The position numbers and the translations under genes are program-made. 64,000 nt of DNA. Source: Enchytraeus crypticus. Lineage: Eukaryota; Annelida; Clitellata; Enchytraeida; Enchytraeidae. The notes below the pieces were generated by a model. The model was not told the origin of the DNA. It was given only the letters and a program-made list of their open reading frames with translations, and searched no databases. Numbering within the stretch: position 1 is the first letter of the stretch; the number at the start of each line of letters is the position of its first letter. Where the stretch lies: positions 1,337,001 through 1,401,000 of the forward strand of contig CAJHZI010000449.1 in NCBI GenBank assembly GCA_905160935.1, given 5' to 3'. Shown in pieces: positions 1 through 64,000 of the stretch.

Positions 1-30
1 TAGTTAATTAATTAAATAATTAATTAATTA

Positions 31-247
31 ATTGATGGAGTGGTTGATTGATTGCTGACTGGTTGATTGTTTGCTGACTGACTGACTGATTGATTGATTG
101 ATTGATTGATTGATTGATTGATTGATTGATTGCTTGATTGACTGATTGATTGATCGATCGATTGACTAATTGATTGATTGATTTATTGACTGATCGACTG
201 ATTGATTGATTGATTGATTGATTGATTGATTGATTGATTGATTGACA
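31..247 (+). repeat. (TTGA)n array ending at an Rh acceptor
   Basis: TTGA tetramers with CTGA and TCGA variants run up to the AG at 247-248. Each TTGAT unit fits the animal branch-point consensus yUnAy; no pyrimidine tract is present. Confidence 0.95.
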
Positions 248-248
248 G

Positions 249-398
249 TATATCAGGACATTCAGGTGATGATGTTTGTTGGTTTTGGCTTTCTCTCGAC
301 CTATCTGTACCGCTACGGGCTGAGCAGCGTGTCCTATAACTTTCTGCTGGGAGCCATGTGTATCCAGTGGGCCACCCTCACTGACGGCTGGATCAGGG
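249..398 (+). CDS. RHBG/RHCG-like: Rh exon a (first in window)
   Basis: Encodes YQDIQVMMFVGFGFLSTYLY and on to QWATLTDGWIR, the early TM segments of Rh proteins. The acceptor follows a (TTGA)n array with no polypyrimidine tract. The donor G|GTCCCA is weak, but it is the only GT that keeps phase 1 into the next exon. Confidence 0.85.
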
Positions 399-63649: not shown

Positions 63650-63794
63650 GTATGTCTAGGCCTACCAACAATCCCTACAACTTATTTCTTTTACCTTCTT
63701 TTACCCGGTCTAGTCCAATCTGAAATGACCAAATTAATTTTTTTCTTGTAACACGTTCATTGATGTGAATACTCTGTGAAATTTCGAGAAAATA

Positions 63795-63867
63795 AAAATA
63801 TTCTCTCTCTCTCTCTCTCTCTCTTCCTCTCTTCCTCTCTCTCTCTCTCTCTCTCTCTCTCTCTGTC
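63795..63867. repeat. (TC)n microsatellite
   Basis: CT run near the right edge, ferlin intron 26. Confidence 0.96.
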
Positions 63868-64000
63868 TCTCCCTTACCATCATGTATCAGTGTATTAGAT
63901 ATCTAAGAAAATTTTCATAAGAGGACTTTTTAGAAGGCAAAACTTAGTAGCAAAAACAACTGGAAAATAGGTTTTGTACAGTTGCCTGAAAGTTGATTTC

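Follow-up and report, generated by a model that had tools for sequence, protein, structure and literature searches.

Tandem duplications across exon edges and their duplicate splice sites in the genome of Enchytraeus crypticus

Duplicated splice sites in constructs and in a natural genome

The choice between near-identical duplicated splice sites has classically been studied in constructs. Those carrying a duplicated 3' splice site were reportedly used by Reed and Maniatis in 1986. Such constructs are used again in PMC5389562, where duplicated-3'-splice-site beta-globin pre-mRNAs are spliced inefficiently in vitro and at the distal site only, the upstream copy of the 3' splice site carrying 14, 55 or 205 exon bases. 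The exon-head echoes described here have the same layout as these constructs: an upstream duplicate acceptor and a truncated exon head are followed by the real acceptor. Unlike the constructs, which are of human beta-globin and are assayed in vitro, the echoes are natural, carry 13-58 exon bases in their upstream copies and are known here from DNA alone.

Several other systems invite comparison. Introns can be gained by tandem duplication of exon sequence (the AGGT model). Tandem duplication is also named as an intron source in PMC2809761. As in AGGT-model gain, the effect of a tandem duplication is here absorbed by splicing; that model, however, places a new intron inside an exon, between exon-only copies, whereas at the echoes the intron already exists and the unit comprises its tail together with the exon head (12 of 13 clear echoes). 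Tandem exon duplication and mutually exclusive exons likewise involve tandem duplication at exons, but the echo unit stops inside the exon, and a whole exon is copied at a single locus (L036). With intronic minisatellites the echoes share tandem arrays, with units of, for example, 28, 33, 77 and 102 bp; unlike minisatellites, the arrays here take in a splice site and coding bases. Finally, fish AC/GT introns are structured, with complementary repeats at their ends. The (ATCA)n tracts at intron starts in this genome are similarly complementary to the (TGAT)n tracts at intron ends, but the two occur in the same intron no more often than by chance (3 of 139 introns against 2.5 expected).

Among the papers listed in searches of the open-access literature, none describes tandem duplications that straddle splice sites throughout a genome. 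Among the sampled sites of this genome, roughly 1/12 of acceptors and 1/25 of donors are duplicated. The pattern is real and common; the preferred reading is that it shows, at exon borders, a high rate of intronic tandem duplication, with selection acting on exons. The duplicated splice sites form a naturally occurring set, of moderate interest, in which exon-head length, identity and offset vary and which is useful as a series for splicing tests; gene finders may call decoy sites in this genome.

Echoed acceptors in the window

The window, which is the whole stretch of 64,000 nucleotides that was analysed, belongs to an assembly of 524 Mb in 802 contigs whose genes have introns. Two genes are recognizable on its plus strand. 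The first encodes an Rh/ammonium transporter (joined Rh exons, PF00909, E=4.8e-26). The second encodes a ferlin with C2, FerI, FerA and FerB domains, for which myoferlin is the best solved relative (E=1.7e-169) and whose joined exons match PF08150 (E=1.9e-31). Within these two genes 26 acceptors and 25 donors were placed.

The original prediction named eight acceptors in the window as preceded by copies of their own AG, usually with bases of the following exon. Five of these (5048, 50177, 51105, 56323 and 62463) are true exon-head copies, in which the AG is accompanied by 27-46 exon bases at 80-96% identity and by 8-12 intron bases beside the AG (the search used 12). The Rh exon at 5048..5208 (plus strand; PF00909 match, GT/AG ends) is preceded in its intron, 3974-5047, by an array of copies of its head at 4140..4962 (plus strand; TRF and alignment, limits drawn by eye). 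TRF itself reports 4152-4898 with a 33-bp unit, and the exon-head alignment places a decoy exon start at 4490; the copy measured holds 33 exon bases at 80% identity. The remaining four are plus-strand ferlin exons, three of which (50177..50277, 51105..51218 and 62463..62577) were placed by myoferlin alignment and splice sites, and the fourth, in the FerB region (56323..56475), by PF08150 and splice sites. Acceptor 50177 has a decoy copy at 50055..50093 (plus strand, 39-bp alignment; exon start equivalent 50067) at an offset of 110, with 27 exon bases at 95% identity, the AG kept and a PWM score of 8.4 against 9.2 for the real site. Acceptor 51105 lies in a plain two-copy 78-bp tandem at 50992..51147 (plus strand, TRF, 96%), which gives a decoy exon start at 51027, 46 exon bases at 93% identity and a PWM score of 9.8 at both sites. 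The decoy of 56323 is aligned at 56237..56279 (plus strand; exon start equivalent 56248; offset 75), has about 32 exon bases at 86% identity and keeps its AG, scoring 5.2 against 4.0. That of 62463, aligned at 62366..62414 (plus strand; exon start equivalent 62378; offset 85), has 37 exon bases at 96% identity, an intact AG and a score of 3.9 at both sites.

Two further acceptors of the eight share only about four exon bases with the sequence upstream and are intron arrays near an acceptor. More specifically, a 77-bp intron array with repeated AG runs up to Rh acceptor 8202 (7980..8205, plus strand, TRF), where no match to the exon head came out of the search and about four exon bases in common were seen by eye; a 99-bp intron array, also with repeated AG, lies 5' of acceptor 57169 (56931..57139, plus strand, TRF), where the same search returned four exon bases only and no exon echo. 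For the eighth, at 12868, the array is real: TRF finds a 28-bp unit in 5.3 copies at 12852..12999, which on a minus-strand reading covers a putative acceptor and carries ...AACTAG/GGTTTGGGCT. Several AGs fit this putative acceptor, which was placed at 12861. Four translations from the putative minus-strand gene (about 10.4-13.7 kb), those of this exon included, gave no Pfam match above the cut-off, the best being TMEM192 at E=0.2. The original prediction gave offsets of 75-110 for single copies; outside the window offsets range over 53-308, with further copies to 430.

Echo rates at exon edges and along introns

The wider sample comprises 180 exons, with 26 from the window (ferlin and Rh), 99 from myosins and 55 from SNF transporters. 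A myosin-head profile matched 81 exon places in the whole genome and an SNF-transporter profile 93, and 20 myosin and nine SNF stretches, holding 48/81 and 37/93 of these profile matches, were fetched; 82 dynein matches were left out of the exon sample. Exons were called by homology among paralogues together with splice-site scores. Four tblastn clusters (L024 1874; L029 835, 4917 and 5086) proved to be copies of the echo kind and were removed as exons, donor ends were corrected by hand at L021, L015, L029 and L037, and L014 was reset to its first call. Each exon head (40 bases) was aligned with the 500 bases upstream, omitting the nearest 16, and a score of at least 13 was taken as a match.

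Exon-head echoes were found upstream of 15/177 acceptors and exon-tail echoes downstream of 7/173 donors. Crossed controls gave 1/173 (heads against downstream sequence) and 1/176 (tails against upstream sequence), mid-exon controls 2/176 upstream and 1/173 downstream, and heads or tails set against the introns of other gene sets 2/10,500 at the same cut-off. The prediction that duplications over 3' splice sites are found repeatedly, in genes that are not related, is upheld, and against this null the matches are not due to chance. The 15 acceptors include two marginal matches at 13.0 each (L032 e988 and L037 e4273) and the whole-exon copy L036 e7555, with L029 e7349 (12.0) falling under the cut; the seven donors count the whole-exon copy L036 e7250 and exclude L021 (12.5).

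The imbalance between the two ends is mostly due to the window, where 5/26 acceptors and 0/25 donors are echoed; outside it the figures are 10/151 acceptors and 7/148 donors, and both ends are alike. The lack of donor echoes in the window may have prompted the acceptor-only view taken earlier. Echoes in mirror form occur at donors of L029 (twice), L037, L027, L015 and L028, with L021 just under the cut. These donor echoes contradict the statement that copies never include the exon end, as does the tandem duplication of a whole exon in L036 (e7250/e7555), the only whole-exon unit among the 15 acceptor matches. The two copies of this SNF-transporter exon, at 7250-7337 and 7555-7658 in gene orientation, have diverged and are possibly a pair of mutually exclusive exons.

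A positional control used the same score at 40-mer anchors along exons and introns, restricted to anchors passing a complexity filter. With copies sought upstream on the acceptor side, matches were found for 15/172 exon starts (8.7%), falling to 4/175 at +20 in the exon and 2/174 (1.1%) at +40. Intron anchors on this side gave 19/121 at -40, 16/125 at -80, 18/129 at -120 and 7/126 at -160, and deeper ones 12/128 at -200, 11/136 at -280 and 7/128 at -360. With copies sought downstream on the donor side, the exon tail gave 6/167, intron anchors 16/124 at +1, 16/121 at +41, 15/127 at +81 and 8/114 at +121, and deeper anchors 13/125 at +161, 11/124 at +241 and 9/127 at +321; swapped controls for the positional classes stayed at 0-1.6%. 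The exon-head rate is therefore that of the intron (5-16%), and the signal is lost within the exon. The original prediction had proposed a process that acts at 3' splice sites in particular and had itself named the lack of an excess over intronic positions as evidence against it. No such excess is found, donors are echoed too, and this part of the prediction is not sustained.

Arrays at other loci were sought with the genome pattern (TTGA)n-N0-8-ACAGG, which gave 974 matches, against 559 for an ACTGG control that is imperfect, in that a single step separates GACTGG from the repeat and the count is raised. The first 100 ACAGG matches listed represent 81 distinct sites, and for 29 of these a twin lies 25-400 bp away on the same strand, with 12 clusters; among the matches listed for ACTGG, 27/89 sites have such a twin, with 10 clusters. 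Twin rates are thus about alike for the splice-like motif and its control among the matches listed. In all 12 ACAGG clusters the copies agree, by eye, for about 12 bases or more beyond the AG, and in seven of them (L038, L040, L041, L042, L044, L047 and L049) an open frame follows the last copy and is absent from the upstream copies. Such a frame past the last copy behaves as a real exon would, and these seven are candidate exons with tails of about 30 codons only. Arrays at donors include an exon tail with (ATCA)n present as an original and three copies (L029), an array of 27-31-bp units (L021) and arrays of donor-like sites (L050-L052). The TRF arrays at 50992-51147, 4152-4898 and 7980-8205 and those in L038-L049 consist of a single contiguous unit whose copies lie next to one another, head to tail.

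The echoes are most probably, at odds of about 80%, ordinary short tandem duplications that are common in introns and tolerated over splice sites, while selection filters exons. Short tandem duplications with offsets of about 30 to about 310 bp would arise often in the introns of this genome, probably through replication slippage or template switching. Where the duplicated unit stops within the exon edge, the duplication would survive, because the coding sequence is unaffected as long as the outermost splice site stays in use; one lying wholly within the exon would alter the protein and be removed, presumably by purifying selection. The expected outcome is exon-head copies 5' of acceptors and exon-tail copies 3' of donors, every copy bringing a second splice site with it, and later expansion would turn some of them into arrays. 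The decoys would rarely be spliced, having so few exon bases and bringing a stop codon when used, and the outer splice site would be expected to win over them, as the distal site does in the beta-globin constructs. No new mutational mechanism tied to splicing has to be invoked.

Tetranucleotide tracts, decoy sites and alternative readings

Perfect runs of at least 12 within 100 nt are oriented around exons, with 27 (TGAT)n against 3 (ATCA)n before acceptors (n=178) and 13 (ATCA)n against 3 (TGAT)n after donors (n=178). In the whole genome, a tract followed by ACAGG is TTGA in 974 matches and CAAT in 160, and CAGGT followed by a tract gives CAAT 596 times and TTGA 259 times; these counts take overlapping matches in long tracts and tandem arrays several times, and since both strands were searched, the two orientations are equally abundant by construction. 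The (ATCA)n tracts begin within about 15 bases past donors (in the window, 38090-38597, 7295-7511 and 35139-35323) and the (TGAT)n tracts stop no more than about 15 bases short of acceptors (19-245, 34839-35007 and 54955-55468); the reverse placement is rare, genome-wide too. A U-rich requirement could explain the polarity of (TGAT)n at acceptors.

It is possible, if rather less than likely, that the (TGAT)n tracts found before many acceptors are mutation hotspots. Slippage or template switching would begin in the tract and the copying would run on into the exon edge, and acceptors would be preferred for a reason that lies at the level of the DNA. Echoes at a score of at least 12 are more frequent where the acceptor has a perfect run of (TGAT)n, of at least 12 and within 60 nt, than where it has none (7/25 vs 9/153, p=0.002), and the tract stands ahead of the duplicated AG in several copies. 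Duplicated intronic anchors (score of at least 15, counted per intron) also increase towards acceptors, with 12/83 within 120 bp and 3/93 at about 240-320 bp (p=0.013), a weak excess. This gradient and the (TGAT)n association together indicate that the duplication rate is not uniform. However, donors show neither an association with (ATCA)n (1/12 vs 7/167) nor a gradient of duplicated intronic anchors (11/84 vs 11/93), 9/16 echoes have no perfect tract of at least 12 within 60 nt, and tract-bearing introns may simply be rich in repeats.

A broader form of the hotspot proposal is doubtful, namely that inward (TGAT)n and (ATCA)n tracts frame exons and act as hotspots copying duplications into the exon edges, so that borders are marked from both sides. 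If true, tract hotspots would continually generate duplicate splice sites by a DNA-level process. The arrangement (TGAT)n-exon-(ATCA)n mirrors itself across the exon, and the two tracts tend to flank one and the same exon, (TGAT)n in front and (ATCA)n behind (6/26 vs 6/150, p=0.003), the six exons being three from the window, two from myosins and one from an SNF transporter; the window alone shows no association (3/10 vs 3/15), and the co-flanking is a lead only. As a separate candidate, an intron-end stem looping out the decoys was rejected, the duplex energy in 24 window introns being -31.2 for own ends and -31.8 for swapped ends. Shared reverse-complement 9-mers at intron ends do exceed swapped ends in a larger set (p=0.02), yet a pairing role of the tracts is not supported.

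A process specific to the 3' splice site, such as RNA-templated or spliceosome-linked duplication, would account for the echoing of unrelated genes and for the overall excess of acceptors over donors (15/177 against 7/173), but is very unlikely. Donor echoes exist in mirror form, the excess shrinks to 10/151 against 7/148 outside the window, and intron positions are duplicated equally often. Moreover, in 12/13 clear echoes the intron tail and exon head are contiguous, as in DNA and unlike spliced sequence.

That the copies leave decoy acceptors is confirmed, with the AG intact in 12/13 clear echoes (the exception is L029 e1089) and the decoy scoring at least as high as the real site in 7/12 of those that keep it. 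All 12 inserts tested would add a stop codon if the decoy were used, and a long (TGAT)n tract has TGA in all frames; AT-rich inserts are likely to hold stops in any case, which makes 12/12 a weak argument for decoys going unused. These features would suit decoys kept for a function, poison splicing and nonsense-mediated decay lowering or regulating expression, but such a role is highly improbable. The aligned parts of the copies show 80-100% identity and the copies are probably recent, so that AG retention is expected without selection, and the rates are the same as at intron positions. Assembly artefact is scarcely credible, for although copies are near-identical at a few loci (L038), most are set apart by substitutions, and some carry indels, with varied offsets and on many contigs.

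Other repeats were noted in passing. At G000:C158:2290287-2290700, the last part of which is L050, ten donor-like CAGGTTCAATCAATC sites (one of them CAGGTTTAATC) are listed at a spacing of 40-48 bp and make up an array of duplicates. The window also holds a dispersed repeat, located by eye at about 1998-2120, 3640-3770, 6808-6935, 7680-7830 and 14035-14178, with a further copy at the miscalled donor in L015; one of its strands translates (by eye), and the repeat has a GGTTCAAATCC-like box and is possibly a tRNA-derived SINE. Two long 19-bp tandem arrays, at 40875-41968 (58 copies) and 42379-42656 (15 copies), enclose an open frame at 41970-42332 that is GC-rich and 121 codons long.
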